Origin: a virus
Length of the DNA: 23,488 nucleotides
Strand: one strand, 5' to 3'
Virus record (IMG/VR): IMGVR_UViG_3300049810_000655
Span: 1 to 23,488 of that record
Part shown: positions 8,363 through 23,488 of the stretch, in pieces
Numbering within the stretch: position 1 is the first letter of the stretch
Layout of the letters: each line of letters opens with the position of its first letter
Position numbers and translations under genes: made by a program
Notes under the pieces: model-generated
Database searches by the model: none
What the model was told of the DNA's origin: nothing
The model's input: the letters and a program-made list of their open reading frames with translations, nothing else

Positions 8363-9382
8363 ATGGCAATTGATAAAATAGGAAGTGCTTCAATAGGAAC
8401 TGATGTTATCGTTGCTGAAGACTTGGCAGCAAACTCGGTAACCGTATCTGAAATTCAAGATAGTGCGGTTACAACAGTAAAGATTTCTGATGATGCTGTA
8501 ACTGGTGCAAAGATTGAAGACAATCCTACGATTGCTGGAAATCTTACTGTAGTTGGTTCTACTAATGTTGATACTCTGAATGTATCGGATACTGTGAAGA
8601 TTGCTCAGGGAACTGATGTTTGGGTTGGTTGGGATAACTCCGATACCGCAAGAAACCTAAGAATACAAACTAATGTTGGTGATGGTTCTACAGACGCATA
8701 TGGTGTTGAAGACATAAATTATGCAACAGTTTTCACCAATGAACAGGGAACAACTAACCAAGCAATAGTTATAAACGATAAAGCGTCAAACAGTCTAGAT
8801 GCAGAACCTGCCCTTCTATTCAGTGTTACTGATAATGGAACGGCAGATGCAACCACAGGGACAGGTAGTGAAACTTGGACTAAACTTTGGTCTGTTAGTG
8901 GAACTGGTATCGTTCAAGCACCGAAACAACCTTGTTTCACTGGTTATGTTGAAAATGCCTTCCTTAACAATGCAAACACCAATTCTGGTGATGTTATTCT
9001 ATTCGGTGAAAGCACTAACACATCCTCATGGACTCAAGATGTAGATTCTAATGGTGACTTCAATGCTAATAATGGAAGATTCACTGCTCCAGTAGATGGT
9101 AACTATTACTTTTCAGCACATATGACTATTGATGCTGGTGATGGGTCTGAACAGAATAATAACCAAGTTGCTCTTTTCAAAAACGGTTCTCTTCAAAGAG
9201 GGTTGTATCAAGATATGGAATCGACTGCTGCCGCTGTTTCCGGCGATGTCCACTTACCACAAGTGACTAGTATTGCAATGGTAATAACTTTAACTGCTGG
9301 AGATTATGTTCAATGTGGTGTGTATGAGAACCCAACAACAGATATCACTAATGCGATATTCAGTGGATTCTTGATAGGTTAA
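8363..9382 (+). CDS. Tail fibre-like protein with C-terminal C1q-like domain
   Basis: The 339-residue product starts with repeated short segments (AEDLAANSVTVSEIQDSAVT, KISDDAVTGAKIED) that look like a trimeric helical or beta stalk. The phrase AGNLTVVGSTNVDTLNVSD, common in marine phage fibres, follows. Residues about 187-339 have the outline of a C1q/TNF-like jelly roll: KQPCFTGYVENAFLNN at its start, GRFTAPVDGNYYFSAHMTI from 238, NQVALFKNGSLQRG, LTAGDYVQCGVYEN and the closing strand FSGFLIG. C1q-like trimers are binding modules, so this end probably contacts a receptor or another virion protein. An AGGA at about 8350 serves the start, and there is no separate promoter in the 12-base gap after the gp10-like gene. 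Confidence 0.78.
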   Translation: MAIDKIGSASIGTDVIVAEDLAANSVTVSEIQDSAVTTVKISDDAVTGAKIEDNPTIAGNLTVVGSTNVDTLNVSDTVKIAQGTDVWVGWDNSDTARNLRIQTNVGDGSTDAYGVEDINYATVFTNEQGTTNQAIVINDKASNSLDAEPALLFSVTDNGTADATTGTGSETWTKLWSVSGTGIVQAPKQPCFTGYVENAFLNNANTNSGDVILFGESTNTSSWTQDVDSNGDFNANNGRFTAPVDGNYYFSAHMTIDAGDGSEQNNNQVALFKNGSLQRGLYQDMESTAAAVSGDVHLPQVTSIAMVITLTAGDYVQCGVYENPTTDITNAIFSGFLIG

Positions 9383-9384
9383 TA

Positions 9385-9660
9385 ATGAAAAAATTTGTAA
9401 TTGAATTGAGTGATGTAGATTATAATAGTTTATTGGTTGATATGATATCCCCAGAGGAACTATTCACTAACTTTGTAACAAGCAGAGTGGATAGAAGTCA
9501 ATCAAAAATTATAAAGATTGCTACAGATTGGCACATTAGAAACGAAAAACAATTACCTGTAAAAAAAGAAGATATTATAAAACAGGCATTTGATAATGGA
9601 TTGGTATTAACTCTTGAAGAAAGAGCCAAACAGCAACGACTAGCAGAACTCAATAAATAA
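9385..9660 (+). CDS. Small conserved-looking protein of unknown function
   Basis: The 91-residue product begins two bases after the preceding stop and is predicted mostly helical and charged. Its shape recalls a family of small proteins next to tail fibre genes in marine phages: an N-terminal strand (MKKFVIELSDVDYNSLLV), a SPEELFTNFVTSRVDRSQ helix, then IIKIATDWHIRNEKQLP, KKEDIIKQAFDNG and a basic-acidic tail. I know of no function for that family; a fibre assembly factor would be a guess from position only. There is no signal peptide or membrane segment, and it lacks the Thr/Gly/Asn-rich composition of the virion proteins around it. Confidence 0.85.
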   Translation: MKKFVIELSDVDYNSLLVDMISPEELFTNFVTSRVDRSQSKIIKIATDWHIRNEKQLPVKKEDIIKQAFDNGLVLTLEERAKQQRLAELNK

Positions 9661-9691: not shown

Positions 9692-11158
9692 ATGGCAGCG
9701 ATTATTACAGAAAACTTTAGACGCCATAATGCTGAACAATTCTTTGAATCGTTCTCAGAAGCAAGTGCGTCAACATATTACTTATTCATCGGTAAGAGTT
9801 CACCCTTTACCGTTGACACATCTGGTGGTGATGACAACTCCCCTCCTGTTCCAAATGACGATGTTGTAACAGAATTTTATAAATGGGATTCAATGCTAGC
9901 TGCCAAACTAATTTCATCTTCGGATGTTGCATACGTTATCCCTCGTAGAAACTGGACAAACGGAATTACTTATGACATGTATGAACATGATGTAAGTTCA
10001 ACTAACACCACAACTTCTGGTGCAACTAATCTTTATGATGGAACTTTCTACTTTATGACTTCAGAGTATAAAGTATATAAAGTTCTTGACAATAATGGTG
10101 GAACAGCATATAGTGGTTCTGAACCAACTTCAACTACCGCAGCTCCTTTTGAATTAGGTGGTTACACCTTGCAATACATGTATGCACTAACAACCTCTCA
10201 AGTTCAAAAGTTTTTAACTACAGACTTTTTACCAGTATATTCTGATACAACAATTTCTGCAGCTGCAATTGATGGTTCAATCGACACAGTTCGTGTGGCT
10301 GGTGGTTCTGGTTATACAGATGGAATATACTATGCCTCAATTGATGGTGATGGTTCTTCTAGTGTTGTAGAGATTTCGGTATCTGGTGGTGCAATAGAAC
10401 CACAGGGGTCTTCTGGTTCCAATGTTTACGCATCTGGTTCTGGTTATACCTTTGCAACTGTTGACCTCACAAATGTTTACTCAGATAATGATTTGCAAAC
10501 TTCAGCATCCATTGGTTCTGGAACTGGTGGTATTGTAACACCTATAATTTCACCGAAAGGTGGACATGGGTTCAATCCACAAACAGAACTAGGTGGTCAC
10601 TTTGTAATGATGAACTCTAAACTAGAACAAAATGAAGGTGATGATATTACAGTAGCAAACGACTTCAGAGAAGTTGGTATCATTAAAGACCCATATAATT
10701 TTGGAACAACAACAGTATCATCGGCATCTACTCGTAGACAAACATTTGCAGTTAAGTTTGCTTCTTCACCGTCTACAGACTATAGTGTTGATGAAAAGAT
10801 TACACAAACATCTACTGGTGCAGTTGGTCGTGTTGTAGAATGGGATGCAACAAATAGTATTCTCTATTTCCTACAAGAGAGATGGGAAGAATATGGTGTA
10901 GATTCTACAGACAATCAACCTGCCTTTACTGGTGCAAATGTTATTACTGGTGCATCCTCAACAGCAGCCGGAACACCTTCTGCATCTTCTTCTGAAGATG
11001 TCACTCTAGGTGGTGGAACAACACTAACCTTTCAAAACGGTTATGCAAATCCAGAACTAGAACCTAATAGTGGAAAGGTTCTCTATGTTGAAAATAGACG
11101 GCCGATATCTCGTGCGTCTGACCAAACAGAAGATATTAAAATCGTAGTGGAATTCTAA
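9692..11158 (+). CDS. 8: Baseplate wedge subunit gp8
   Basis: The protein is 488 residues, longer than T4 gp8 (334). Both ends match the T4 protein as I recall it: AAIITENFRRHNAEQFFESF at the start, then YVIPRRNWTNG (VIPRRDW in T4), and at the C-terminus GKVLYVENRRPI followed by DQTEDIKIVVEF (T4 GEMIYMENRPPI and DQTEEINILFTF). gp8 is a dimer bridging gp10, gp7 and gp6 in the wedge. Extra length lies in the middle: a Gly/Ser-rich stretch around 205-290 (VRVAGGSGYTDG) and a beta module about 360-430 with DEKITQTSTGAVGRVVEWD, related to modules in the gp7 candidate and the DUF4815 protein. The AAGGA at 9671-9675 is 16 bases from this ATG but well placed for a three-codon ORF at 9679-9690 that ends one base before it. 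Confidence 0.93.
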   Translation: MAAIITENFRRHNAEQFFESFSEASASTYYLFIGKSSPFTVDTSGGDDNSPPVPNDDVVTEFYKWDSMLAAKLISSSDVAYVIPRRNWTNGITYDMYEHDVSSTNTTTSGATNLYDGTFYFMTSEYKVYKVLDNNGGTAYSGSEPTSTTAAPFELGGYTLQYMYALTTSQVQKFLTTDFLPVYSDTTISAAAIDGSIDTVRVAGGSGYTDGIYYASIDGDGSSSVVEISVSGGAIEPQGSSGSNVYASGSGYTFATVDLTNVYSDNDLQTSASIGSGTGGIVTPIISPKGGHGFNPQTELGGHFVMMNSKLEQNEGDDITVANDFREVGIIKDPYNFGTTTVSSASTRRQTFAVKFASSPSTDYSVDEKITQTSTGAVGRVVEWDATNSILYFLQERWEEYGVDSTDNQPAFTGANVITGASSTAAGTPSASSSEDVTLGGGTTLTFQNGYANPELEPNSGKVLYVENRRPISRASDQTEDIKIVVEF

Positions 11159-11161
11159 ACA

Positions 11162-14100
11162 ATGGAAAAAACCAATCTAAATGTCACTCCTTATTATGAT
11201 GACTTTGCCGAGGATGATAATTTTCATCGTGTCCTCTTTAGGCCCGGCTTTTCAGTTCAGGCCCGTGAACTAACACAACTCCAATCTATTCTTCAAAATC
11301 AGATTGAGAGACATGGCCGCCACATGTTCAAAGAAGGAACAGTGGTTATTCCTGGCGCATGTGGTTGGACAGAAAAATATTATGCAGTAAAATTGCAACC
11401 GACATTTGGTGGTAGTGATATTTCTCCTCAAATTTCAGAGTATGTTGGAACCAGAATTACTGGTGTAACTTCTGGTGTTGAAGCAGAGGTAATTGAAGTT
11501 GTTCCCTCAACTTCTTCTGACCCAATAACTCTATATGTAAAGTATTTAAAAACTGGACAAGACAATACATCTATAGTATTCAGTGATGGCGAAAACATTT
11601 CTGCCGATGCTACCGTAGGTGACTTTGGTGCTGGTATTGCTTCTGCAATCTTAGAAGCATCAAATGCAACTGCAACTGGTTCATCAGCAAACATCCAAGA
11701 GGGTGTTTACTTTGTTCGTGGTCACTTTGTTCATGTTCCAGAACAGAGAATCATTCTAGACAAATATACTAATACACCTTCATATCGTATTGGTTTGACA
11801 ATTACGGAATCTCTTGTTACTCCAGAGGAAGACACTTCCTTGTTGGATAATGCACAAGGAACATCAAACGTAAATGCAAAGGGTGCTCATCGACTAAAGA
11901 TTGATTTGTCTCTTGCAAAACTTTCTCTTGATTCAGAAGAAGATGGTAATTTCATCGAACTGTTGAGAGTAAGTAAAGGTGTCCTTCAACAGAAAGCAAG
12001 AAACACAGAATACTCAGTTATTGGTGAAACTCTTGCAAGAAGAACTTTCGATGAAAGTGGTGATTACGTTATTCGTAATTTTGAACTTAATCTTCGGGAG
12101 GCACTAGATGATGGACTAAACAATGGTGTATATGCTGTGGGAACAACTACAGATAGTGGTAACACTGCATCTGAAGATAACCTAACCATGCAAGTATCGC
12201 CCGGCAAGGCATATGTTCGTGGTTATGAAATTGAAACCATTGCACCAAAGTTTATTGATATTCCTAAACCAAGAAGTTTTAATTACTATGACGGTTCTGT
12301 TACTCCAGTAGAAGTGGGTAACTATGTTATAGTTGACAATGTTTATAATACTCCAGACTTGCAACCACTAACTGGTGGTGAAATTGCAGAACCATATAGG
12401 GAAGTTGCACTTTTTGATGCTGCAACATCAACTCGTGGTCAATCATCAAGTGGTAATAAGATTGGTTTCGCTCGTGTTCGTGGGTTTGAACATCTTAGTG
12501 GTAACCAAGATACATCTGATGATTTTCTAGCAGATGGTTCAACTACAGATTCTAGATTCAAACTTTACATGTTTGACCTTCGTATGTTCACTAAGTTGAC
12601 TCTTAGTGGAACTCCAAGTCCAGCCATAACTGCTGGTGCAAAAGTAACTGGTATGGAATCTGGTGCATATGGTTATGTTACATCTGACTCTACTGGAACC
12701 TCACTTGTTCTAATAACAGTTACAGGTTCTTTCTCTACTGGAGAAAAACTAAAATCTACATCTTCAACAGAGACAGATGAGATTTTAGAAACTTCTGGTA
12801 ATACAGATATTACTATATCTTCTTTGGAAAGTTTTGATTTTAGTTCTGTAAAACAAGTTTACATGAATGACCCAGATGCTGGACAGGATTTTACTGCTGA
12901 CCCATTACTTAATGCTGAGTTTGTTATTGACGGAACGGTTTCTGTGTCTGCTGGTGGAACTACACTTACAGGGTTCCAAACTGATTTCACAACCCAACTT
13001 AAAGTTGGTGATTTTATTAAGATTCCTTCTGGAACTGCTGGTGCAGTTGAAACCAAAGAAGTTACAAACATTGCAAGTTCAACTTCTTTAACAATTGGTA
13101 GTGCGGCAACTGTTGCAGTGTCTTCTGGTAAGGCAGATAGACTTCGTGCAAAGTTGATTGACCAGAATAAAAACATTCTGATTCGTAAACTACAAAAAGA
13201 TTTTATTAAGACACTTAAAACAGAAGGTAATAATGGACTATCAAAGTCCCAAGTTATTGTTCGTAAACAATTGTTTGATACTTCTGCATCTGGTGCTCTT
13301 ACGTTTAGTATCGGTTCTAATGAAACCTTTAATGCCGTTGATAATACAGACTACGTTCTTTCTATCCTTACTGCTGGTGATGGTAGTGCAACTCAAGGTG
13401 AAGTTATCAACCTAAACAGTTCTAATGTAACACTAGGGACTACTGGTGGACAATCATTAACAATTACTTCTTCATCATTGTTCGGTGATGGTTGTAAAGC
13501 AAAATTAGTCGCAACAGTTACTAGAACCAATATTAACGAAAAAACAAAAACAAATAATCGTTGTCATCTAGTGGTAGTTGATAATGATGGTATTGCTGGT
13601 GGTAGTGAATACGGAACTTCAGCACACCACAAAGATATTTCACTAGGTAAAGGTGATATTCATAAACTTCGTGCAGTTTATGCTTCTGCTGATAATTCAA
13701 CAGAGGTCACTTTACCGTCATGGACTGTTACTGGTGCAACTGGTTCTTTCACTAAAGGTGAAACAATTACTGGTGGAACTTCTGGTGCAAAGGCAACAGT
13801 AATTAATCCAATTTCTCCGATTTCATATATTCCGATTAACAACAATTCGTTCTCTGCATCAGAAACTATTACTGGTAATGAGTCTGGTGTTTCTGCAACA
13901 ATGGAAGCACAATCTTATGTCGGGGACAATAACGTAACTAATGATTTCACCTTTGACAATGGACAAAGAGATAACTTCTATGATGTTGCTCGTATTGTTC
14001 GCAAACCAACTGCACTTTCCCCACAGGGTAAGTTGTTGATTGTCTGTGATTACTTTGACCATTCTTCTGGTGATTTCTTTACCGTTGATTCTTATAGTAG

Positions 14101-17100
14101 TATTGATTACAAAGATATTCCAACATACTCTGCTACTCGTGTTGACCCAGAGGTTGCAGAACCTACTGGTGAATACGATTTGAGAAACGCAGTTGACTTT
14201 AGACCTAAAGTTCAAGACTCAACAAATTCTATTACTTCGGATTATAATTCTCAAGGACAGCCTGCAACAAAAATTACAGACTTCTCTTTTGATTTTGAGA
14301 ATCGTTCTTATTCTGGAACTGGTGCATCAACTATTAGTATTCCAAAGGATAACTCTAACTTTACATATGACTTTGAATATTATCTTGGTCGTATTGACAT
14401 GTTGTTCTTGGATTCTGTTGGTGAGTTTAAACTTGCACAAGGTGCTCCGGCAGAACAACCTTCTGCACCTAAACCTCTAGAAAATGCAATGAAGATTGCA
14501 ACGATTAATCTTAATCCTTATATTGTTGCACTAGAAGATGCGACATATACTAGAGAGAATAATCGTAGATACACAATGCGTGATATCGGTAAACTTGATA
14601 ACCGTATTTCTAATATTGAATATTACACTGCATTGAATCTTCTGGAGAAAGATGCACAGTCACTAGAAATTTTAGATTCAAATGGTTTGAATAGATTTAA
14701 GTCTGGTTTTGTTGTAGATAACTTTGCTGGACACGCAACTGGTGATGTTAAACATCCAGATTATCGTAACTCCATTGATATGGAGAATGGTGAACTTCGT
14801 CCAAAATATTATATGAAGGGTGTTACTTTAGAAGAAGAAAATCTAAATGACACAGAAAGAACAAATGATAATTACACGATTCATGATAATATCATTACTC
14901 TTCCTTATACTCATGAAGTTACTGCCGAACAACCATACGCAACTCGTGTTGAAAACCTTAACCCTGTTCTGAACTTTTCATGGGCAGGTATATGTAAACT
15001 TACACCATCTGGTGATGAGTGGTTTGAAGTAGACCGTCTTCCAGATTTGATTATTAACAGAGAAGGTAATTTTGATACGGTTCTTGCTGCAAATCGTAAT
15101 GCAATTGGAACGGTATGGAATGCATGGCAGACACAGTGGTCTGGTATAACTACATCTTCTTCTACACGATTTAGAGAAACTTCTTGGCAGAGAGCTCGTA
15201 ACACAGTTCCGTATAGACCAGTTATTCAGAGAACAACTACAACTGAACAGGGAACTAGAACCAGAACAGGTGTATCAACTCAAGTTGTTGCACAGATTGA
15301 TTTGGAATCACAAGGTGATAGAATTCTATCACAAGCGGTTATTCCGTTCATTCGTTCTAGAAATGTTATTTTTGAAACAACTGGTATGAAACCTTTAACA
15401 AAGGTATATCCATTCTTTGATAAAGTTAATGTAACACAATACTGCACACAGATTTCTGGTGCGGTTGCTGGAACTGCAACTGTTCTTGACCCAACTGCCG
15501 AATCTGGTGATTGGACTCGTATCGGTAAAGTTACTGTTGAGTATGACTTAAACCAAAACAGTCAAGTTGATATTAGTCTATCATATAGTGATAAAGTATC
15601 TAGTGGATATAGAACACTTACTACACAAAAAACTGCATCTACACGTTCAGTAACATCTGACATTATGGAGTTCAATCTAATCAATGACGAAATTGAAATT
15701 GACCCTAATGACTATGGTGAAACTTTTATTAAAATTGATATAGATGCAACAGGTAGAAATAAACTTAGGTCATTCCAAGTTTTGGAAATAAAATTCTATG
15801 ACCAAGATGAAAACCTAATTGGAAACTCAACTCATGCTGAAGTTGTTCGATTTAAAAACTTCTCTAATGCACATCGTGCTGTTGATGAGATTGTAAACCC
15901 AGAATCTAACAAATCAAGAGTTGGTGAAACTGAAATTTGGGGTAGTCAATACTCAAGTGGTTTCCTAACTACTCGTGTATTTGGTGGTGCAAGAAATAGA
16001 TTTAACGCAAGAGTAAGTCAAATCATCCAGACAACTGATGTTGAATCTGGAACATTGACCACTGATGCGGCCGGTAATCTTTCTGGTGTATTCGCAATTC
16101 CAGACCCAAAGGTTAGTGGTAACCCAAGATTTAGAACTGGTGAAAGAATGTTTAGACTTACTTCTGATATTAATAATTCAGAAGAAAGTGTAGAAACATT
16201 TGCACAAGCACTTTATAGTGCAAAGGGTATCTTGAATACAGTTCAAGAAACAATCATTGCAACTCGTAATGGTAGAGTAGAAACTACTGATATTTCGCAA
16301 TCTCGTGCAACATCTAGACAGTCAACTCGTGATACTGTTGTCGGATGGTGGGACCCGTTAGCACAATCCTTCATGCCTCAGGCAGAAGGTGGTGAATATA
16401 TCACCAAAGTTGATGCATACTTCTCTCAAAAAGACGAATCAATTCCTGTTAGTTGTCAAATTCGTGAAATGCAAAATGGTTATCCTACAACTAAGGTTCT
16501 TCCTTTTGCATCCAAAACACTTGAACCAGATGAGGTGTCAACCTCTTTTGATGCAACAGCAGTAACAACATTTGAGTTTGATGCTCCAGTGTATGTTAAA
16601 GATGGTGTGGAATATTGTATAGTTCTCTTTACAGATTCTCCAAAATATCTATGTTGGATTTCACGAATGGGTGAAACTGATGTGGGGGGAACTCGTTTGG
16701 TTTCTGAACAACCTTACTTGGGTGTTCTGTTCAAATCACAGAATAACACAACTTGGTCTGCATATGACCTAGAAGACTTGAAGTTTAAATTGCATCGTGC
16801 AAAATTTGATACTAATGTAACTGGTGTTGTAGATTTGATTAATGCAGATATTCCAGAAGTCAAACTTCAAAACAATCCAATAAGAACAATATCTGGTGAA
16901 ACTAAAATTAAAGTTATTCATCAAGACCATCACATGTATGATAGTAGAAACAACGTAACAATTGATGGGGTATCTTCTGGTGTGTCAACCACACTTAATG
17001 GTGCGATTACAGATAGTGCTACTAGTTTGGTTTTGGACAATGCTTCAAACTTCCCAACTTCTGGAACGGTTTATTTGAAACTTTACACTGAAACTACTAA

Positions 17101-18139
17101 CCCAGAACAAGAAGAATTTGAAATTGTTTATGGAACAATTTCTGGAACTTCAGTAAGTTCAATTACTCGTGGAGCTGGTTCTACGTCAGCGATTGCACAT
17201 GTTGATAATACAACTATAGAGTTGTATCAACTAAATGGAATTCCTTTGACGGAGATTAATAAGACTCATACTCAATTATCCAATATTCAAATGGACTCTT
17301 ATACTGTCTCTACTACAACTGCCGCATCAACAACTGGTGCTGGTGGTGGTGCAGAAGTTTATGCAACAGAGAATGCAGTTATTAACCAAATGCAGACTCT
17401 TGTTCCAACAGTTGAACATCCAAACACTTCAATTATTGCGAAAGTAAGAACTACAAGTGGAACCTCACCAAGTGGTAATGAACAATCGTTTGATTTACAA
17501 AGCAGTAGTGCCTCAGAGGTTATCCCTCTAACAGATAACTATTTGTTTGAGACACCTCGACTTGTTGCTTCTAAGGTAAATGAAGATAATGAAATGGACG
17601 GTAGTAAATCACTCAGACTGCAAATGTTAATGCAAACAGAGGTTGATAACCTGTCACCAATTATTGATTTGGAAAGAAAAACACTTATCGCAGTTGCAAA
17701 TAGACTAGATAATGTGGACTCTTCTTCTGATGTTTATCCTACAGATGAGTATATTCCAGCAACAGACCCAGATGGGGATTCTAACGAGGCAATTTATGTA
17801 ACTCGTAAGGTTCAATTGAAAACTCCTGGCACTGCTATTAGAACATATCTAGATGCAGTTAATTTTGACTCATCTGAAATACAAGTAATGTATAAGATAC
17901 TTCGTTCAGATGATGCTTCAGACTTTGATGAAATTGGTTGGAGATATTTCAATACTGATGGAACCCCAGACGAAACAGTAAATGCATCTATTAGTTATAC
18001 TGACTATATTGAAAGAGCATATACCGTTGAGGGACTAGAAGAGTTCATTGCATTTGCAATTAAAATTCGTATGCAAGGAACTAACTCTTCAGAGGTTCCT
18101 CGTATTAAAGATTTAAGAGCAATTGCGTTGGCGACATAA
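11162..18139 (+). CDS. Giant virion structural protein, DUF4815 family
   Basis: At 2325 residues this is the largest gene in the window. The N-terminus has the DUF4815 outline: NVTPYYDDFAEDDNFHRVLF, RPGFSVQARELTQLQSILQNQIERHG and, at about 330-365, MQVSPGKAYVRGYEIETIAP. Between about 490 and 920 lie several small beta modules (GAKVTGMESGAYGYV, KGETITGGTSGAKATV, SASETITGNESGVSATM) plus a VSVSAGGTTLTGFQTDFTTQL module. A helical and beta core of about 1100-1700 follows. At 1731 comes DPLAQSFMPQAEGGEYITKV, a segment I know from large baseplate/fibre proteins of marine T4-like phages, and at about 1940-2005 a LNGAITDSATSLVLDNASNF ... SSITRGAGSTSAIAHVDN module. The C-terminus (YIERAYTVEGLEEFIAFAIK, VPRIKDLRAIAL) is compact. 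It probably forms the baseplate periphery or fibre base. Three bases separate it from gp8, and its own Shine-Dalgarno is weak, which suggests coupling. Confidence 0.82.
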   Translation: MEKTNLNVTPYYDDFAEDDNFHRVLFRPGFSVQARELTQLQSILQNQIERHGRHMFKEGTVVIPGACGWTEKYYAVKLQPTFGGSDISPQISEYVGTRITGVTSGVEAEVIEVVPSTSSDPITLYVKYLKTGQDNTSIVFSDGENISADATVGDFGAGIASAILEASNATATGSSANIQEGVYFVRGHFVHVPEQRIILDKYTNTPSYRIGLTITESLVTPEEDTSLLDNAQGTSNVNAKGAHRLKIDLSLAKLSLDSEEDGNFIELLRVSKGVLQQKARNTEYSVIGETLARRTFDESGDYVIRNFELNLREALDDGLNNGVYAVGTTTDSGNTASEDNLTMQVSPGKAYVRGYEIETIAPKFIDIPKPRSFNYYDGSVTPVEVGNYVIVDNVYNTPDLQPLTGGEIAEPYREVALFDAATSTRGQSSSGNKIGFARVRGFEHLSGNQDTSDDFLADGSTTDSRFKLYMFDLRMFTKLTLSGTPSPAITAGAKVTGMESGAYGYVTSDSTGTSLVLITVTGSFSTGEKLKSTSSTETDEILETSGNTDITISSLESFDFSSVKQVYMNDPDAGQDFTADPLLNAEFVIDGTVSVSAGGTTLTGFQTDFTTQLKVGDFIKIPSGTAGAVETKEVTNIASSTSLTIGSAATVAVSSGKADRLRAKLIDQNKNILIRKLQKDFIKTLKTEGNNGLSKSQVIVRKQLFDTSASGALTFSIGSNETFNAVDNTDYVLSILTAGDGSATQGEVINLNSSNVTLGTTGGQSLTITSSSLFGDGCKAKLVATVTRTNINEKTKTNNRCHLVVVDNDGIAGGSEYGTSAHHKDISLGKGDIHKLRAVYASADNSTEVTLPSWTVTGATGSFTKGETITGGTSGAKATVINPISPISYIPINNNSFSASETITGNESGVSATMEAQSYVGDNNVTNDFTFDNGQRDNFYDVARIVRKPTALSPQGKLLIVCDYFDHSSGDFFTVDSYSSIDYKDIPTYSATRVDPEVAEPTGEYDLRNAVDFRPKVQDSTNSITSDYNSQGQPATKITDFSFDFENRSYSGTGASTISIPKDNSNFTYDFEYYLGRIDMLFLDSVGEFKLAQGAPAEQPSAPKPLENAMKIATINLNPYIVALEDATYTRENNRRYTMRDIGKLDNRISNIEYYTALNLLEKDAQSLEILDSNGLNRFKSGFVVDNFAGHATGDVKHPDYRNSIDMENGELRPKYYMKGVTLEEENLNDTERTNDNYTIHDNIITLPYTHEVTAEQPYATRVENLNPVLNFSWAGICKLTPSGDEWFEVDRLPDLIINREGNFDTVLAANRNAIGTVWNAWQTQWSGITTSSSTRFRETSWQRARNTVPYRPVIQRTTTTEQGTRTRTGVSTQVVAQIDLESQGDRILSQAVIPFIRSRNVIFETTGMKPLTKVYPFFDKVNVTQYCTQISGAVAGTATVLDPTAESGDWTRIGKVTVEYDLNQNSQVDISLSYSDKVSSGYRTLTTQKTASTRSVTSDIMEFNLINDEIEIDPNDYGETFIKIDIDATGRNKLRSFQVLEIKFYDQDENLIGNSTHAEVVRFKNFSNAHRAVDEIVNPESNKSRVGETEIWGSQYSSGFLTTRVFGGARNRFNARVSQIIQTTDVESGTLTTDAAGNLSGVFAIPDPKVSGNPRFRTGERMFRLTSDINNSEESVETFAQALYSAKGILNTVQETIIATRNGRVETTDISQSRATSRQSTRDTVVGWWDPLAQSFMPQAEGGEYITKVDAYFSQKDESIPVSCQIREMQNGYPTTKVLPFASKTLEPDEVSTSFDATAVTTFEFDAPVYVKDGVEYCIVLFTDSPKYLCWISRMGETDVGGTRLVSEQPYLGVLFKSQNNTTWSAYDLEDLKFKLHRAKFDTNVTGVVDLINADIPEVKLQNNPIRTISGETKIKVIHQDHHMYDSRNNVTIDGVSSGVSTTLNGAITDSATSLVLDNASNFPTSGTVYLKLYTETTNPEQEEFEIVYGTISGTSVSSITRGAGSTSAIAHVDNTTIELYQLNGIPLTEINKTHTQLSNIQMDSYTVSTTTAASTTGAGGGAEVYATENAVINQMQTLVPTVEHPNTSIIAKVRTTSGTSPSGNEQSFDLQSSSASEVIPLTDNYLFETPRLVASKVNEDNEMDGSKSLRLQMLMQTEVDNLSPIIDLERKTLIAVANRLDNVDSSSDVYPTDEYIPATDPDGDSNEAIYVTRKVQLKTPGTAIRTYLDAVNFDSSEIQVMYKILRSDDASDFDEIGWRYFNTDGTPDETVNASISYTDYIERAYTVEGLEEFIAFAIKIRMQGTNSSEVPRIKDLRAIALAT

Positions 18140-18140
18140 G

Positions 18141-18368
18141 ATGAGTGAATTTATTAAAGTAGAAAATCATCCGAATCTAGTTAGAGACACAAGTTCTCGT
18201 GCAATTATTAATACTGATATGACCGCATATAGAGCTGCGGTTGCTAGGTCTCGTGCGGCAACCCAACAAAAAGATGTATTAAGGGATGCAGTAAGAGACA
18301 TAAATAATCTAAAGTGTGAGATGCATGAAATAAAATCTCTCCTATTAAAGTTAGTGGATAAAGATTAA
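18141..18368 (+). CDS. Small coiled-coil protein of unknown function
   Basis: I start at ATG 18141, one base after the stop of the giant gene, rather than at a TTG at 18123 lying inside it. The product is 75 residues. It begins SEFIKVENHPNLVRDTSSRAIINTD, a phrase that resembles small proteins in baseplate clusters of other marine T4-like phages. It ends in a likely coiled coil with leucine/isoleucine spacing (DVLRDAVRDINNLKCEMHEI, KSLLLKLVDKD). There are no membrane segments. A structural or assembly role is plausible from place and coiled coil, but function is unknown. Confidence 0.82.
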   Translation: MSEFIKVENHPNLVRDTSSRAIINTDMTAYRAAVARSRAATQQKDVLRDAVRDINNLKCEMHEIKSLLLKLVDKD

Positions 18369-18907
18369 TGGCAGACCGTAATACACCAGCAAGTTTTACC
18401 TTTGAGGAATGGCGTGTAGAGTTTAATGAACTCGCATCTGATGTGGGCGATATTGGTAATCTTCCTGCTTCTATTAATGGGAATGCAGTAACAGATATTG
18501 TTGAAGCAGTTACAGAGTTGGAAGGTGCAATTTCTAATGTCCTATTTCCAAACGTAATTGACTTTGATGACTCCCCAGATTCTTCTAACGAAAGAATTAA
18601 GATGGGTGCCTCAGATGATATGCAACTATATCATGATGGTTCTAATTCTTATGTTAGTCATGATGGTGGCGGAGACTTAAACATTAGTTCTACAAGTGAC
18701 TTAACGGTCAATGCTACAACTGGTGTTAATTTACAATTTAATGGGTCTACAAGATTAGACACAACAGCCGATGGTATTAATGTCACAGGTGATGTTCAAC
18801 TAAGTGGAAACATCACAAACGGTTCAACAGTATTGCAAATTGGAGATACTAGTGGAAGAGTGGCAACTGAAGGATTTTCTGTAGCAATGGGTATTGCTCT
18901 CGGATAA
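18368..18907 (+). CDS. Small tail fibre-like protein
   Basis: This 179-residue protein overlaps the preceding stop by one base (TAATG). Residues 1-35 (FTFEEWRVEFNELASDVGDI) look like a helical adaptor. The middle has MGASDDMQLYHDGSNSYVSH, a motif very common in fibres of marine phages. The later part has strands in the order DLNISSTSDLTVNATTGVNL, then RLDTTADGINVTGDVQLSGN. It probably forms a thin trimeric beta stalk. There is no recognisable head domain, so it may be a shaft or spacer piece. A weak GGA at about 18356 is the only nearby ribosome binding candidate, and coupling to the upstream gene is likely. A late promoter follows immediately. Confidence 0.78.
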   Translation: MADRNTPASFTFEEWRVEFNELASDVGDIGNLPASINGNAVTDIVEAVTELEGAISNVLFPNVIDFDDSPDSSNERIKMGASDDMQLYHDGSNSYVSHDGGGDLNISSTSDLTVNATTGVNLQFNGSTRLDTTADGINVTGDVQLSGNITNGSTVLQIGDTSGRVATEGFSVAMGIALG

Positions 18908-18911
18908 ACAT

Positions 18912-18919
18912 TATAAATA
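18912..18919 (+). promoter_or_regulatory. T4-type late promoter before the small tail-protein cassette
   Basis: An exact TATAAATA lies in the 41-base gap. AAGGAAG at 18934-18940 and ATG at 18949 follow at fitting distances. It would drive the gene run from 18949 to beyond the window end. Confidence 0.75.
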
Positions 18920-18948
18920 ACTTAGTATAAACAAAGGAAGAAATCAGA

Positions 18949-19293
18949 ATGGCAAACAATTTTAAAAATGCTTTCGCAACAAGTGTCAGCACCTCAAGTG
19001 GGTCACCGACAAATGTTTACACTGCGAACAATGGTTCTGCCGTCAACTCAATTCTGATTGAACTTGATGTAGCAAACACAAGTTCATCTGCAATTCAAGT
19101 ATCTGTTGTAATTTATGACAGTTCTGGAACTGCATCGTATCACATCGTTAAAAATGCTCCTCTCCCAGCGGGCGGTGCATTGAAAGTTGTGTCGGGTCAG
19201 AAGGTCGTGTTGAACGGTGACGATGAAGTTCGTGTATACGCAAGTGCATCAGACGTTGATGTGGTGGCATCAATTCTAGAAGATGTTGCATAA
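18949..19293 (+). CDS. Small beta-sandwich virion protein, unknown role
   Basis: The 114-residue product is almost all predicted strand: NNFKNAFATSVSTSSGSP, TNVYTANNGSAVNSILIELD, VANTSSSAIQVSVVIYDSSG, then a loop with APLPAGGALKVVSGQKVVL and the closing strands DEVRVYASASDVDVVASILE. Similar small proteins with a VANTSSS-x-IxVxV core occur in tail regions of marine phages, where they are annotated only as structural or hypothetical. It is the first gene after a late promoter and has a good AAGGAAG, so it may be made in quantity. The 3' half (about 19165-19270) is richer in G and C than neighbouring genes. Confidence 0.8.
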   Translation: MANNFKNAFATSVSTSSGSPTNVYTANNGSAVNSILIELDVANTSSSAIQVSVVIYDSSGTASYHIVKNAPLPAGGALKVVSGQKVVLNGDDEVRVYASASDVDVVASILEDVA

Positions 19294-19306
19294 GGGGTAA
19301 ACAATC

Positions 19307-20125
19307 ATGTCAGACGCATATATTGGTGTTCCATTTATAAACCAAGTTTCAGATACCTTTCCCAAAGAGGATTTTACAGGTTCAGACTTTGGTTCAGTAA
19401 CAGGCGCCCACGGAACTTATTCAAATGCTGTTGAGTTGAGTATTGATGTTCCTGGCAGTGAGTCGGGTAATATTGAAGTTCTTTACGATAATGTTCGTCA
19501 AGAACCCGATGTAGCCTATACTGTTCATGAGGACAGTTCAAACAGACCTAGAGTTATAAATTTCTCTGAATCTGTTTCTTCTACTGCGTCTATTTACATT
19601 ATTCATAAGGGTGTTGGGCCATATAATATGACTCCCCCAAATAATTCTATAACACATCTGCATTTGTCAGATAATATGAAAACTTTCACTACAGATGCTT
19701 TTACTGGTGATGGTTCAACAACAGGATTTACACTATCAGAGACCCCAGCAAATGTCAATACTTTGTTGGTGATAGTTGATGGTATTATTCAGAAAGCAAC
19801 AACGAACTATACTCTTTCTGGCACAACTTTAACATTCACCTCTGCCCCAGACGCAAGTGCAGAGATTGAAGCAAAACATTTAGGGATTCGTGGAATTGTT
19901 CGTAGAGCCCCAGATTGGTTAGTTGATAACTATACTGGTGACGGTTCAACAACAACTTTTACATTAACAACTGCCGGTGTCACTACTAATAGTGCATGGG
20001 TTTATTATAACGGTGTCATGATGGTGCCAACAACTGACTACTCAGTTAATTCTTCTACTGGAGTGGTTACATTTACGTTTGCTCCATTAACAGGCCTACC
20101 AATCATGATAAGGTATCAAAACTAA
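19307..20125 (+). CDS. Tail protein with three tandem GDGS-type beta domains (paralogue A)
   Basis: The 272-residue product has an N-terminal MSDAYIGVPFINQVSDTFPK and then three repeats of one beta-sandwich plan. The plan is GDGSTTxFxL, a hydrophobic strand ending in V-x-V-D-G-x-x-Q, a xxYTxSGTTLTF strand, AP, and a closing strand. Copy 1 (about 35-105) is diverged (NIEVLYDNVRQEPDVAYTV). Copy 2 begins near residue 133 (TGDGSTTGFTL) and copy 3 near 210 (TGDGSTTTFTL). T4 gp10 contains a somewhat similar strand order (LEVRFNGILQE). A paralogue lies at 21903-22673. AAGGGG at 19292-19297 serves the start. A virion adaptor or fibre role is likely. Confidence 0.8.
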   Translation: MSDAYIGVPFINQVSDTFPKEDFTGSDFGSVTGAHGTYSNAVELSIDVPGSESGNIEVLYDNVRQEPDVAYTVHEDSSNRPRVINFSESVSSTASIYIIHKGVGPYNMTPPNNSITHLHLSDNMKTFTTDAFTGDGSTTGFTLSETPANVNTLLVIVDGIIQKATTNYTLSGTTLTFTSAPDASAEIEAKHLGIRGIVRRAPDWLVDNYTGDGSTTTFTLTTAGVTTNSAWVYYNGVMMVPTTDYSVNSSTGVVTFTFAPLTGLPIMIRYQN

Positions 20126-21480
20126 TGGCAAGTAAAAATAAAAATATCGCAGAACTTCTTGATGCAAACGGTGACGTTTTACTATCTAATCTAGATAATA
20201 TTTCTGTTACTGCTCAAGATGTTTCTGACATGGACAATGCATCTACAGGACAGTTTACACTTCCATCTGGAACAACTGCTCAACAACCAGCCACCTCATA
20301 TGAAGGTGCTCAAAGGTTTAATACTGAGTTGGGTGTTATGGAATACTATGATGGCACTTCTTGGAAAAAGGTTTCTGCACAGATTCCTGTAATTAGTTCT
20401 ACATCTGGTAGAATTTATGATGGTTGGACTTCTGACATTACAATTACTGGTAATAACTTTTTGGTTTCATCTATGGTTGTAAACTTTAATCAATCAGATG
20501 ATAGTATTGATGAAAATGTTACAGTAACTCCTACTAGTAATACTTCTGTAACTGTTACAGTCCCAAGTGCAGTTTATTCAAATGTAACTAGTGGTAATGT
20601 TGTTGATGTCAGAGTAACAAACAGTGACAGTGCCACATCTTCATCTGCTTCAATAACTGCTACAGGTCTTCCTAGTGGTGGAACAATAACAACCTCTGGT
20701 GATTATAGAATTCACAGATTTACATCATCTGGAACTTTCACAGTTCCTTCTGGTGTGTCGTTCTCTTCTAGAGAATCACTCATTGTTGCTGGTGGCGGCG
20801 GTGGTGGTAACGATAACGCAGGCGGTGGTGGTGCTGGTGGACTAATTCACAACACATCTGATTCATTCTCTGCTGGAAATAGTTACAGTGTAACTATCGG
20901 TGGTGGAGGCGGTGCCGGAGCCAACTCTGGTGGTGACGGTGGCCCTTACGCATCGAATGGCTCTAATTCAGTATTCAATAGTCAAACTGCTATTGGTGGT
21001 GGTAGAGGCGGTTCTGGTGGTGGTGCCAATGCGAATTCTGGTGGTTCTGGCGGAGGCGGTTCTGGTGAAGCTGCAAACGGAATTGGTGGTGCTGGAACAT
21101 CTGGACAAGGAAACAGAGGCGGTGATGTATCTGGTTCTGGAGGCGGCGGCGGCGGTGGTGCTGGTGCAGCTGGACAGGATGGTGATGTTCGTGCCGCAAG
21201 TAAAGGTGGATACGGTGGTGCTGGACTTCAAAAGAGCATTACAGGTTCCAATACATATTATGCTGCTGGTGGTAACGGTGGTAACGATAACGGGCAATAC
21301 GAAACACAAACATCTACAAATGGTATTGGTGGAATATCAAATACCAACAGTAGCACTGGTGCAACCGCCGGTGCAACAAATACTGGTTCTGGTGGTGGAG
21401 CAACAACTCACACGGTTTCTCCAGTAGGAACTGGTAACGGCGGTTCTGGTGTTGTTGTTATTCGGTATGAATTGGACTAG
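20125..21480 (+). CDS. Glycine-rich tail adhesin-like protein (paralogue B)
   Basis: The 451-residue product overlaps the previous stop by one base. Order of parts: a short N-terminal helix; LPSGTTAQQPATSYEGAQRF with NTELGVMEYYDGTSWKKV (a PxGTxAxxP...RFNTxxGxxExxDGxxW module frequent in marine phage fibres, about 46-85); an Ig-like domain (about 90-185); SGGTITTSGDYRIHRFTSSG; then from residue 223 a glycine-rich region of more than 200 residues with runs of GGGGGG, ending in GNGGSGVVVIRYELD. Glycine-rich heads occur in the T2/S16-type gp38 adhesins, where polyglycine helices hold variable receptor-contacting loops. That comparison rests on composition and architecture, not on alignment. A second, related gene starts at 22684. 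Confidence 0.8.
   Translation: MASKNKNIAELLDANGDVLLSNLDNISVTAQDVSDMDNASTGQFTLPSGTTAQQPATSYEGAQRFNTELGVMEYYDGTSWKKVSAQIPVISSTSGRIYDGWTSDITITGNNFLVSSMVVNFNQSDDSIDENVTVTPTSNTSVTVTVPSAVYSNVTSGNVVDVRVTNSDSATSSSASITATGLPSGGTITTSGDYRIHRFTSSGTFTVPSGVSFSSRESLIVAGGGGGGNDNAGGGGAGGLIHNTSDSFSAGNSYSVTIGGGGGAGANSGGDGGPYASNGSNSVFNSQTAIGGGRGGSGGGANANSGGSGGGGSGEAANGIGGAGTSGQGNRGGDVSGSGGGGGGGAGAAGQDGDVRAASKGGYGGAGLQKSITGSNTYYAAGGNGGNDNGQYETQTSTNGIGGISNTNSSTGATAGATNTGSGGGATTHTVSPVGTGNGGSGVVVIRYELD
20676..20714 (+). repeat. 39-bp exact direct repeat, copy 1
   Basis: The sequence from TGGTGGAACAATAACAACCT to the ATTCA at 20714 is identical to 23202-23240. It encodes GGTITTSGDYRIH at the boundary between the Ig-like part and the glycine-rich part of the protein. 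Confidence 0.95.
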
Positions 21481-21492
21481 GAGAAAATAAAT

Positions 21493-21867
21493 ATGGCACA
21501 TTACGCAAGAGTATTAGATGGAATTGTAACAGAAGTTATAGTTGCCGAGGATGATTTTTTTGAAAATTTTGTAGATAACTCTCCTGGCGAATGGATTCAA
21601 ACTTCTTTTAATACACATGGTGGAAAACATTATAATTGTGATACTGGTGTAGAAGATGATGGGACACCTCTCAGAAAAAATTATGCTGGGATTGGTTATA
21701 CCTATGATAGAGTAAGAGATGCATTTATCTCTCCTCAAAAGTTCCCTAGTTGGACATTAAATGAGGATACTTGCAAATGGGAACCACCTACCCCAAGACC
21801 AGATGACTATAATAGCAATAATTATACATGGAACGAAACTGACCAGACTTGGGATGCAGTTGAATAA
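21493..21867 (+). CDS. Conserved-looking small tail-region protein, unknown function
   Basis: The 124-residue product has a distinctive layout: MAHYARVLDGIVTEVIVAED, then WIQTSFNTHGGKHYN, LRKNYAGIGYTYDRVRDAFI, PSWTLNEDTCKWEPPTPRPD and a final TWNETDQTWDAVE. I recognise this pattern from small proteins beside tail fibre genes in many marine phages, where no function is assigned. The aromatic-rich beta pattern could suit a fibre tip or an assembly factor. It lies between the two glycine-rich/GDGS cassettes. AGGAGA overlapping the previous stop provides the ribosome binding site. No cysteine pair, signal or membrane segment is seen beyond two isolated Cys. Confidence 0.85.
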   Translation: MAHYARVLDGIVTEVIVAEDDFFENFVDNSPGEWIQTSFNTHGGKHYNCDTGVEDDGTPLRKNYAGIGYTYDRVRDAFISPQKFPSWTLNEDTCKWEPPTPRPDDYNSNNYTWNETDQTWDAVE

Positions 21868-21902
21868 ATAGACATGAACGGAATTAAAGGTAGACACGAA
21901 TA

Positions 21903-22673
21903 ATGGCATATATTGGAGCAGAACCGGCATACGGTGTATTTCAAAGACAGGTTGTTTCGGGTGATGGTTCGACAACAACTTTTGCTTTGGATTACCCTGT
22001 ATCACAAGCAACACAATTACTAATCGTTCTTGACGGTATCGTCCAAGAGCCTGAGTATTCATATACCGTAACTACTTCCAGTGGAAGTGGTTCGTTGACA
22101 TTTTCAGAAGCACCAGACAATAATGCTCGAGCATCCATTGTGTATATGGGTAGACAGTTGCTCGTGGCCACTCAAGCAACATCATCTCCTGCCATTGATA
22201 CTTTCAATGGTGATGGTTCGACAACAACTTTCAGTTTAAGTAGAACTCCAAGTGTTGGTAATGGTGCAAACATTATTGTGTTTGTGGATAATGTATATCA
22301 AAGATATGGGTCTTCGTATGCATATACAACCAGTGGTTCAAATATAATTTTTACTGGTGCCCCTTCAAATGGAACAAACAATATTCAAGTTATTCAACTT
22401 GCAGAATCTAACAATATTATAGATACTGTATTGGATAACTCAGTTACAAATGCAAAGTTATCTCTTAGTTATTCATCAACTGGTGCAACTGGAGATGGGT
22501 CATCAACAGATTTCACAATCACAACTGGTCATACGGTAGAATCAGTTTTGGTTCACGAAAACGGTGTATGCTTGGAGCCGACTACGGATTATACAATTTC
22601 AGGCACAACTTTAACATTTACAACTGCACCTGCTAACGGTGCAACACTAAGGTTTAGATATCTACCAATTTAG
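21903..22673 (+). CDS. Tail protein with three tandem GDGS-type beta domains (paralogue A')
   Basis: The 256-residue product begins MAYIGAEPAYGVFQRQ, similar to the YIG start of the 19307 gene, and then shows three domains starting SGDGSTTTFALDYP (about 19), NGDGSTTTFSLSRTP (about 102) and TGDGSSTDFTI (about 198). Each continues with a strand such as LLIVLDGIVQEPEYSYTV and ends with an AP-turn and a last strand (TLTFTTAPANGATLRFRYLP). Between domains 2 and 3 is a linker NIIDTVLDNSVTNAKLSLSY like those of fibre stalks. AAAGG at 21885-21889 is a distant ribosome binding candidate. It is followed 10 bases later by another glycine-rich gene, as its paralogue is. Confidence 0.8.
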   Translation: MAYIGAEPAYGVFQRQVVSGDGSTTTFALDYPVSQATQLLIVLDGIVQEPEYSYTVTTSSGSGSLTFSEAPDNNARASIVYMGRQLLVATQATSSPAIDTFNGDGSTTTFSLSRTPSVGNGANIIVFVDNVYQRYGSSYAYTTSGSNIIFTGAPSNGTNNIQVIQLAESNNIIDTVLDNSVTNAKLSLSYSSTGATGDGSSTDFTITTGHTVESVLVHENGVCLEPTTDYTISGTTLTFTTAPANGATLRFRYLPI

Positions 22674-22683
22674 GAAATAGAGA

Positions 22684-23488
22684 ATGTCAGACAGTAACGC
22701 AAAAAAATTAGCACAACTTCTAGGAAGTGACTCCGATATTAAAGCAGATGACACAGATTTTGGTGCATCTACAGACAGTATTGGAATGCCTGCTGGAACG
22801 CAAGCAGAAAGACCAACATTAACCAATTCTCAATATGGACACACACGGTTTAACACAGATGTTGGGTCATTAGAGTTTTGGGATGGTTCGAATTGGGTAG
22901 CAACAAATCTAATACCAGAAATGACATCTGTTTCAGGCACAATTTATAATGGTTTGGCATCTACACTTACTATTAATATTGGTAGTAAGACGGATGAAGT
23001 AGATATTGTCTTTAGTGATAATAGTGGAACATTTATTGCCGAAGTTACAGGTTTAGATGCAACCTCATCAGTTTCAACCGCAGTTCCTTCATCAGTTTAT
23101 GGGGCAGTGAGTGTTGGTGATGTTATAAGAATTAGTTCAAAAAACCAAGATGGAACTCCATCATCAAACTTTTTAACCGAAACAGTTGTTGATATTCCTA
23201 CTGGTGGAACAATAACAACCTCTGGTGATTATAGAATTCATACATTCACCTCTTCTGGAACTCTTGCAGTTCCAACTGGATTTTCTGTAGCCGCAGATTA
23301 TGTGGTTTCTGCCGGTGGTGGTGGAGGCGGTGGTGGTAACCCAGGCTCTGCCCTTGGTGGCGGAGGCGGTGGGGGCGGTGGCCTAGTTGAAAGCACCACA
23401 ACCCTTGCATCTGCAACAAACTATACAATGACTATTGGTGCTGGTGGTGCTGGTGATTCTACTGGTAGCTTAGGTAACGCAGACCAAG
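22684..23488 (+). CDS. Glycine-rich tail adhesin-like protein (paralogue B'), 3' partial
   Basis: The frame is open from ATG 22684 to the window end (268 codons visible, no stop). An AGGA at 22672-22675, overlapping the previous stop, is the ribosome binding site. It follows the plan of the 20125 gene: MPAGTQAERPTLTN and RFNTDVGSLEFWDGSNWVA (module PxGTxAxxP...RFNTxxGxxExxDGxxW), a shorter beta domain, then TGGTITTSGDYRIHTFTSSG, and glycine runs (AGGGGGGGGN, LGGGGGGGGGLVE) with TNYTMTIGAGGAGDSTGS at the edge. Its N-terminal 40 residues differ from the 20125 product. The remaining glycine-rich head lies outside the window. Confidence 0.85.
   Translation, partial: MSDSNAKKLAQLLGSDSDIKADDTDFGASTDSIGMPAGTQAERPTLTNSQYGHTRFNTDVGSLEFWDGSNWVATNLIPEMTSVSGTIYNGLASTLTINIGSKTDEVDIVFSDNSGTFIAEVTGLDATSSVSTAVPSSVYGAVSVGDVIRISSKNQDGTPSSNFLTETVVDIPTGGTITTSGDYRIHTFTSSGTLAVPTGFSVAADYVVSAGGGGGGGGNPGSALGGGGGGGGGLVESTTTLASATNYTMTIGAGGAGDSTGSLGNADQ
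23202..23240 (+). repeat. 39-bp exact direct repeat, copy 2
   Basis: This stretch is identical to 20676-20714, 2526 bases upstream, and encodes the same GGTITTSGDYRIH segment at the entry to the glycine-rich head. Confidence 0.95.

Follow-up and report, generated by a model that had tools for sequence, protein, structure and literature searches.

The IMG/VR virus record IMGVR_UViG_3300049810_000655, the whole 23,488 bases of which form the stretch analyzed here (the window), is a contig of a T4-like phage covering its baseplate and fiber region. Near its 3′ end, two glycine-rich adhesin genes (B and B′) each follow a gene for a GDGS-repeat protein (A and A′, termed stalks), and a small gene x lies between the two pairs. 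A model had described this A-B-x-A′-B′ layout without database searches as a tandem duplication of a receptor-binding unit, and all five open reading frames (ORFs) of this sequence-only reading are present. The places at which adhesins occur are called slots, and an adhesin is divided into a short N-terminal tag and the body behind it. The features concerned are the following.

7334–8350, + strand: T4 gp9/gp10-like baseplate/fiber connector, directly 5′ of slot 0 (PF07880, 25.3 bits, cut-off 25; phrog_677, "baseplate wedge tail fiber protein connector")
8363–9382, + strand: slot-0 adhesin with a C1q domain (PF00386, E 7.7e-10) and the N-terminal tag MAIDKI, assigned by the tag pattern
9385–9660, + strand: 91-aa gene that may be a partner of the slot-0 adhesin, judged from position only
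18949–19293, + strand: gene E, small conserved protein assigned by identity to Melnitz proteins; its paralogue E2 lies in slot 2 of most relatives
19307–20125, + strand: A, slot-1 stalk, 272 aa, with GDGS repeats and the end ...IMIRYQN (slot-1 clade in the stalk tree; RY end)
20125–21480, + strand: B, slot-1 adhesin, 451 aa (PF21722; structure model; match to Pam3 gp24)
20125–20199, + strand: slot-1 N-terminal tag MASKNKNIAELLDANGDVLLSNLDN, B residues 1–25 (tag pattern in relatives)
20676–20714, + strand: 39-bp tract in B, an exact match to 23202–23240 in B′
21493–21867, + strand: x, 124 aa, putative tip chaperone accompanying Gly-rich adhesins (phrog_7759; Gly-rich gene upstream; likeness to Pam3 gp25)
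21903–22673, + strand: A′, slot-2 stalk of the long type, 256 aa, inside the A2 clade; its C-terminal 68 residues form a GDGS repeat with the end RFRYLPI
22684–23488, + strand: B′, slot-2 adhesin with the tag MSDSNAKKLAQLL, 268 aa up to the contig end, where the ORF is open (PF21722, 33.6 bits)
23202–23240, + strand: 39-bp tract in B′, an exact match to 20676–20714 in B

B′ is cut by the record end, and its far flank lies outside the window. The Pfam and PHROGs scans gave no match for the 91-aa gene.

Stalk matches were found in 134 contigs, a few of which belong to other phage types; most of the loci are metagenome contigs, mostly fragments, and single contigs are denoted by L numbers below. 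The usual order in these contigs begins with a VrlC-like baseplate gene, which is followed by F, E, A, adhesin, A2, E2, A3 and further stalks. Among named phages, the four Methylophilales Melnitz records are the closest (74.7% DNA identity, with 25% of the query 11162–23488 covered); in these, the order F-E-A-B-x is followed by A′, a second E, a fused stalk-adhesin gene and a second x. The window E is 90% identical to Melnitz gp169 and 38% to gp174, which is the second E of Melnitz. The unit is E-A-B-x, with E itself duplicated in relatives, and not the two-gene unit proposed by the sequence-only reading. In Pelagibacter phage Mosig (L240), a fiber and a chaperone occupy the slot-0 position, and the annotations 3′ of VrlC show no E-A-B array, the next genes being hypothetical, epimerase and transferase genes.

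A and A′ are true homologues (33% identity over 244 aa, E 1.5e-26), as are B and B′ (39% over 273 aa, E 4e-33), both of which carry the Gly_rich_2 family PF21722 (70.8 bits for B, 33.6 bits for B′, cut-off 24.3). The GDGS make-up is shared in that both stalks have the motif, but not in its layout, which comprises two motifs in A (134, 211) and three in A′ (20, 103, 197). The Phage_T7_tail N-terminal family PF03906 matched A′ with 33.2 bits against a cut-off of 25.2, and A, with 24.1 bits, fell slightly under it. A stalk tree was built from the first 115 residues of 129 non-redundant sequences, thinned by k-mer redundancy from 253 stalks; slot labels were taken from neighboring genes, except that the label of the long A2 (8 rows before thinning) came partly from a sequence score. 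This tree required five slot-label changes, compared with a minimum of 4 and a shuffled mean of 70.5, and none of 200 shuffles was as low. A groups with the slot-1 stalks and A′ with the slot-2 stalks of other phages, and the orthologues in the nearest contigs are 84–86% (A) and 77–87% (A′) identical, which argues against a recent A/A′ duplication. Judged from this tree, each stalk clade keeps its array position. The long A2 of 256 aa, located directly 5′ of an adhesin or of the contig end, occurs in the window, L006–L009 and L011–L013. Residues 1–188 of A′ correspond to a slot-2 stalk, whereas the last 68 resemble the end of the L088 A3 (65%) or of slot-1 stalks (59%); A′ therefore looks like a slot-2 stalk with an RY-ended repeat. 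In most relatives, an "ALG" end together with E2 takes the place of this repeat.

The RY end of the stalk is closely associated with the tag of the following adhesin. The tag was found on 80 of 88 ORFs directly after slot-1 stalks (71 of 77 distinct N-termini), unrelated bodies among them, and on 15 of 3,262 other ORFs, seven of which lie in slot 2 after a long A2 and eight at slot 1 in contigs cut upstream. Three of the eight slot-1 misses follow a stalk shortened to 237–238 aa without the RY end. A tagged gene came next after 93 of 98 RY-ended stalks with a next ORF (83 recognized by the first regular expression plus 10 ending MARYFV), compared with 0 of 166 other stalks. Three further RY-ended stalks lack a called next ORF; L196 and L211 proved to be tagged on reading, and L011 ends there. 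With the expression frozen, 7 of 10 previously unseen RY-ended stalks in new contigs were followed by the tag, while L358 and L361, although broken or cut, carry the tag on visual inspection, and the tag of L329 is a variant. The rule extends to slot 2, where the tag follows the RY-ended long A′ in 7 of 8 contigs with a next ORF, the eighth (L227) starting tag-like, and follows ALG-ended A2 in 0 of 71. A different tag, MA[IL]D[KTR]I, is present in 9 of 10 slot-0 adhesins with a visible start, including the C1q-type adhesin of the window. Slot 0 holds this adhesin and the 91-aa gene in the window, and a Gly-rich adhesin and x in Melnitz, with the tag common to both. At 116–820 of L233, a gene with the slot-1-type tag stands at the slot-0 position, 5′ of gp8, and the slot-1 stalk of this contig has no following adhesin.

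No comparable dependence on the slot was evident for the bodies and x. The x tree (46 rows) required 15 label changes, compared with a minimum of 3 and a shuffled mean of 16.9, and 19 of 200 shuffles were as low; the adhesin-body tree (43 rows) also required 15, with a shuffled mean of 16.0 and 52 of 200 as low. Among the 46 x-bearing loci, 28 had a body that could be split, the rest comprising ten that were skipped and others with bodies under 300 aa or none. In these 28 complete pairs, tag identity was 0.62 within a slot and 0.43 between slots (0 of 1000 permutations), and the within-slot excess was absent for the Ig-like part (p 0.26), the tip (p 0.84) and x (p 0.72). One B-x pair is located in three slots, namely slot 2 of L006, slot 1 of L007 and L008, and slot 0 of Melnitz (87%). 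Between L006 and L007, protein identity is 96.8% for B and 100% for x, and the DNA of these two pairs is near-identical from approximately codon 27 of B through the whole of x to the opening codons of the stalk that follows. One seam of this cartridge is directly behind the tag, the other where the following stalk starts. An earlier x tree (61 rows, considered below) places its members in one mixed clade (support 100/99), and further well-supported mixed clades join Melnitz slot 1 with L054 slot 3+ (100/98) and L220 slot 0 with L225 slot 1 (100/97). Among relatives of the L006 slot-2 x (11 loci), the cartridge was found in no slots beyond those of L006, L007 and L008. On these comparisons, bodies and x are nearly random with respect to position, and the N-terminal tag is the one part of the adhesin that follows the slot.

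Exchange of bodies is also seen between isolates. Melnitz-2 and Melnitz-3, assigned by accession since isolate numbers in the paper and the records may differ, share 99.93% identity across 19,013 bases of the upstream flank and 100% across 5,772 bases of the downstream flank. Their bodies differ at gp175, gp177, gp181 and gp183 with the N-termini retained; the retained stretch spans ~270 bases in gp175, ~150 in gp183 and some 30 in gp177 and in gp181. A Gly-rich adhesin with x is located at gp175–176 in Melnitz-2 and at gp181–182 in Melnitz-3. The authors of the Melnitz paper (PMC9004378) reported that nine genes differ in length in one isolate and that the host range on three strains was unchanged.

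Within the window, the body of B′ is nearest to the slot-1 bodies of L225, L183 and L187 (53–56%) and only 42% identical to that of its neighbor B, the nearest relative of which is the slot-1 body of L006 (67%). The 39-bp exact tract is common to B and B′ only, as it was not found in the other 219 contigs, and the chance of identical codons over its 13 residues, given the same peptide, is ~4e-5. This suggests a later local exchange between B and B′. Exact tracts of at least 30 bp between differently tagged adhesins occurred in 6 of 18 same-contig and 27 of 861 different-contig pairs (Fisher 2.4e-5; 2.1e-4 without the near-copy L008), while a rank test over all tract lengths was marginal (p 0.048). 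These comparisons point to adhesin exchange both within and between genomes.

B consists of the tag (1–25), an Ig-like domain (~85–182) and a TNF-like and Gly-rich tip (~193–451). Its model (pLDDT 67.9) comprises a floppy N-terminus, the Ig-like domain and a C-terminal part that matches the fiber gp24 of phage Pam3; residues 193–451 superposed on gp24 (7ypx_A) with Z 13.7 and 3.3 Å over 173 residues, low-confidence stretches of the model included, and the sequence profile gave E 0.0078. The best Foldseek E value for B was obtained for an IL-23 receptor chain, accompanied by many fibronectin-type matches; these reflect the Ig-like domain 85–182 and were not used. For x (pLDDT 95.1), residues 1–81 weakly matched the first domain, an N-terminal β-sandwich, of the Pam3 chaperone gp25 (7ypx_a) with Z 5.2 and 2.1 Å over 54 residues, the only structural match with Z >= 2. 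In other searches, x belongs to phrog_7759, a PHROGs family without function; Pfam gave no family, six one-member weak hits being ignored; the PDB sequence profile search yielded just E 0.33; and the ten BFVD matches at E <= 0.001 are uncharacterized or unnamed phage proteins. B and x thus point to the two proteins of a single solved complex, which is suggestive but proves nothing. Among 141 ORFs related to x, 127 have a called upstream ORF, which is Gly-rich in 115 cases, compared with a background of 225 of 1414 ORFs, and L006 and L007 have an x relative after B′ too. The description of x as an unrelated spacer consequently does not hold, and x is probably a folding helper of the adhesin tip. 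Relatives of x also occur in other phages, HTVC025P, CRP-143 and CRP-207 among them. In P-RSM4 (L098, 5001–5381), an x relative has 2OG-Fe(II) oxygenase, ferrochelatase and TPR genes as neighbors, and the gene directly upstream is not Gly-rich.

We interpret the locus, with a probability of roughly 75%, as part of a row of baseplate adhesin sockets in a Melnitz-like T4-type phage, formed by position-bound stalks and slot-tagged exchangeable adhesins. Each socket would be a position-bound stalk gene, A for slot 1, A′ for slot 2 and further stalks downstream in relatives, with the gp9/10-like connector serving as the socket of slot 0. The plug would be an adhesin whose short N-terminal tag belongs to its socket, and the body, often with the following x, would be a cartridge moved by homologous recombination between sockets and phages. 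The tag may dock physically on the C-terminal repeat of the stalk, x may act as a folding chaperone of the Gly-rich tip, and the tips would bind the host surface. At the sequence level, this interpretation is supported by position-bound stalks, slot-specific tags, unbound bodies and x, the three-slot cartridge and the body swaps between isolates. Phages of this group can, by their gene content, carry changing sets of attachment proteins, and two receptor-binding units on one virion, as the sequence-only reading had suggested, are likely.

Several points weigh against the socket interpretation. The tag and RY counts are not independent because several of the contigs included are near-copies. 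Five RY-ended stalks break the rule: apart from L227 with its tag-like start, L226, L230, L232 and L233 have no adhesin after A, and of these four L233 alone has a tagged gene at another place, namely slot 0. An earlier, noisier x set (61 rows) exhibited slight slot clustering, with 25 changes compared with 29.4 in shuffles (3 of 200); its labels were superseded by those of the 46-row set because contigs of other phage types had been labeled, with one doubtful row (L124) left. Linkage of B and x, which was expected to be strong, was weak over the 28 pairs (rho 0.21 for the Ig part and x, 0.13 for the tip and x); bodies therefore also recombine internally, and constant joint movement of body and x is not claimed. 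The x–gp25 match is weak (Foldseek E 1.1), and the helical trimerization domain of gp25 was not found in the x model, which has one four-residue helix. Docking of the tag on the stalk is inferred.

The homology of A/A′ and B/B′, their identical order and the tract common to B and B′ only would fit a tandem duplication of an A-B unit in this lineage, followed by two diverged specificities or retention of a spare copy. This is quite improbable, since A and A′ each cluster with the same slot of other phages, the body of B′ is closer to slot-1 bodies elsewhere than to B, as separate acquisition would have it, and x belongs to the unit; duplication may apply to the stalks at most, and anciently. 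An invertible cassette, as in the S-U and S′-U′ cassettes of Mu and P1, in which inverted arms and a recombinase flank alternative fiber genes, was considered and rejected: both copies lie on one strand, a single weak 16-nt inverted repeat pair (88%) was found in 18300–23488, and no recombinase was found among the window ORFs scanned (Pfam, PHROGs), the far flank of B′ lying beyond the record end. A switchable spare is thus not indicated in the scanned part. Most of the loci are metagenome contigs, and chimeric ones could produce an artifact of cross-slot sharing; this is highly improbable, as the same B-x pair occurs in Melnitz, an isolate genome, L007 and L008 agree while originating from different samples, and the Melnitz isolates themselves differ by swaps.

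The role of x admits another explanation, for in T-even phages gp38 is a small gene after the fiber gene, and x, placed likewise and modeled without a helical trimerization domain, might be a second tip protein of this adhesin kind instead of a chaperone. We consider this unlikely, since x is not Gly-rich and its only structural match with Z >= 2 is the Pam3 chaperone, with B matching the fiber of the same complex. More weight, though still doubtful, is given to ordinary homologous exchange of whole adhesin genes between phages in a plastic region, where the common N-terminus would be crossover homology or a leader for A-B translational coupling and not an address. At slot 1, the stop codon of A and the start of the adhesin gene overlap in 81 of 88 cases, the seams coincide with the tag and with the beginning of the following stalk, and the host recognition cluster of pelagimyophages is known as variable (PMC7029224). 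Nevertheless, slot tags are kept as peptides across unrelated bodies, slot 2 after A′ has a related tag family without the overlap, L233 carries a slot-1-type tag at slot 0, and the tag discriminates between RY-ended A′ and ALG-ended A2. Beyond the socket interpretation itself, a bolder version is possible, but we place it short of even odds: a short peptide at the N-terminus, namely MA[IL]D[KTR]I in slot 0, S-[NK]-x-K-x-[LI]-A-[EQ] in slots 1 and 2 and M[AP]IS[KRQ]I further down, would suffice to route any body to a given socket, the population would share a pool of bodies recombining within and between genomes, and host range would change by reshuffling positions and by new tips.

The gene order in the window is gp25-, gp6-, gp9/10- and gp8-like genes, followed by a 2,325-aa DUF4815 protein that occupies the place of the annotated VrlC in Mosig. 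The remaining features are as follows.

9692–11158, + strand: gp8-like baseplate wedge subunit (PF09215, phrog_438)
11162–18139, + strand: large DUF4815 protein in the VrlC place of Mosig (PF16075, E 2.3e-64; order as in Mosig)
18368–18907, + strand: gene F, short fiber-like protein with the C-terminal end ...AMGIALG (order F-E-A kept in relatives)
18912–18919, + strand: T4-late-promoter-like TATAAATA, 5′ of E (word match)

The word TATAAATA is located at three window sites (1899, 7289, 18912), all on the + strand and each shortly 5′ of a gene start; it resembles the T4 late promoter, and its function is putative. Short tandem-like DNA repeats lie at 7533–7710 in the gp9/10-like connector gene, and a staphylococcal-nuclease-like gene (1458–1895), adjoined by a PAAR-like gene (1139–1441), is located amid the baseplate genes.

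The socket interpretation separates the place-setting from the target-setting part of a marine phage adhesin, in phages that infect very abundant streamlined ocean bacteria with mostly unknown receptors. As near-identical Melnitz isolates differ in several sockets and share their reported host range on three strains, the importance of a socket for infection is testable. The RY-end/tag rule also makes adhesins findable by position in fragmentary contigs, even when their bodies have no known relatives.

Related systems are known. In the available text on the Ackermannviridae tail spikes TSP1–TSP4 (PMC8432352, PMC11414711), several receptor-binding proteins per virion are positioned by distinct N-termini, receptor-binding modules are exchanged between positions, and the cluster adjoins baseplate genes; exchange between positions behind position-specific N-termini is likewise found in relatives of the window. 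Those spikes have β-helical bodies and N-terminal XD domains, whereas here short tags stand behind separate GDGS-repeat stalk genes, the tips adopt TNF-like/Gly-rich or other folds, and many of them are followed by the separate small gene x. No XD domain was listed in the Pfam and PHROGs scans of the window adhesins, no direct comparison being made. Pam3 (PMC9608196, PDB 7YPX), as described in the text available, has in gp24 a TNF-like and Gly-rich tip after an N-terminal docking part and in gp25 the product of a small downstream gene, the first domain of which is weakly resembled by x; it has one fiber instead of several sockets, the Ig-like domain of B is extra, and the helical trimerization domain of gp25 is not in the x model. 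The pelagimyophage host recognition cluster (PMC7029224) and Melnitz (PMC9004378) concern the same genome region, and the available portions of these papers contain no description of slot-bound stalks, slot tags or one adhesin in different slots; our literature searches likewise turned up no paper describing such stalks and tags for these marine phages. Depolymerase receptor-binding proteins of Klebsiella phages (PMC6872550, PMC8262889, available parts) also combine a conserved N-terminal anchor with an exchangeable C-terminal body, while the exchange here takes place among several sockets of one genome. The modular theme of receptor-binding proteins is therefore already known, and the new part is the slot-bound stalks and tags of these marine phages.

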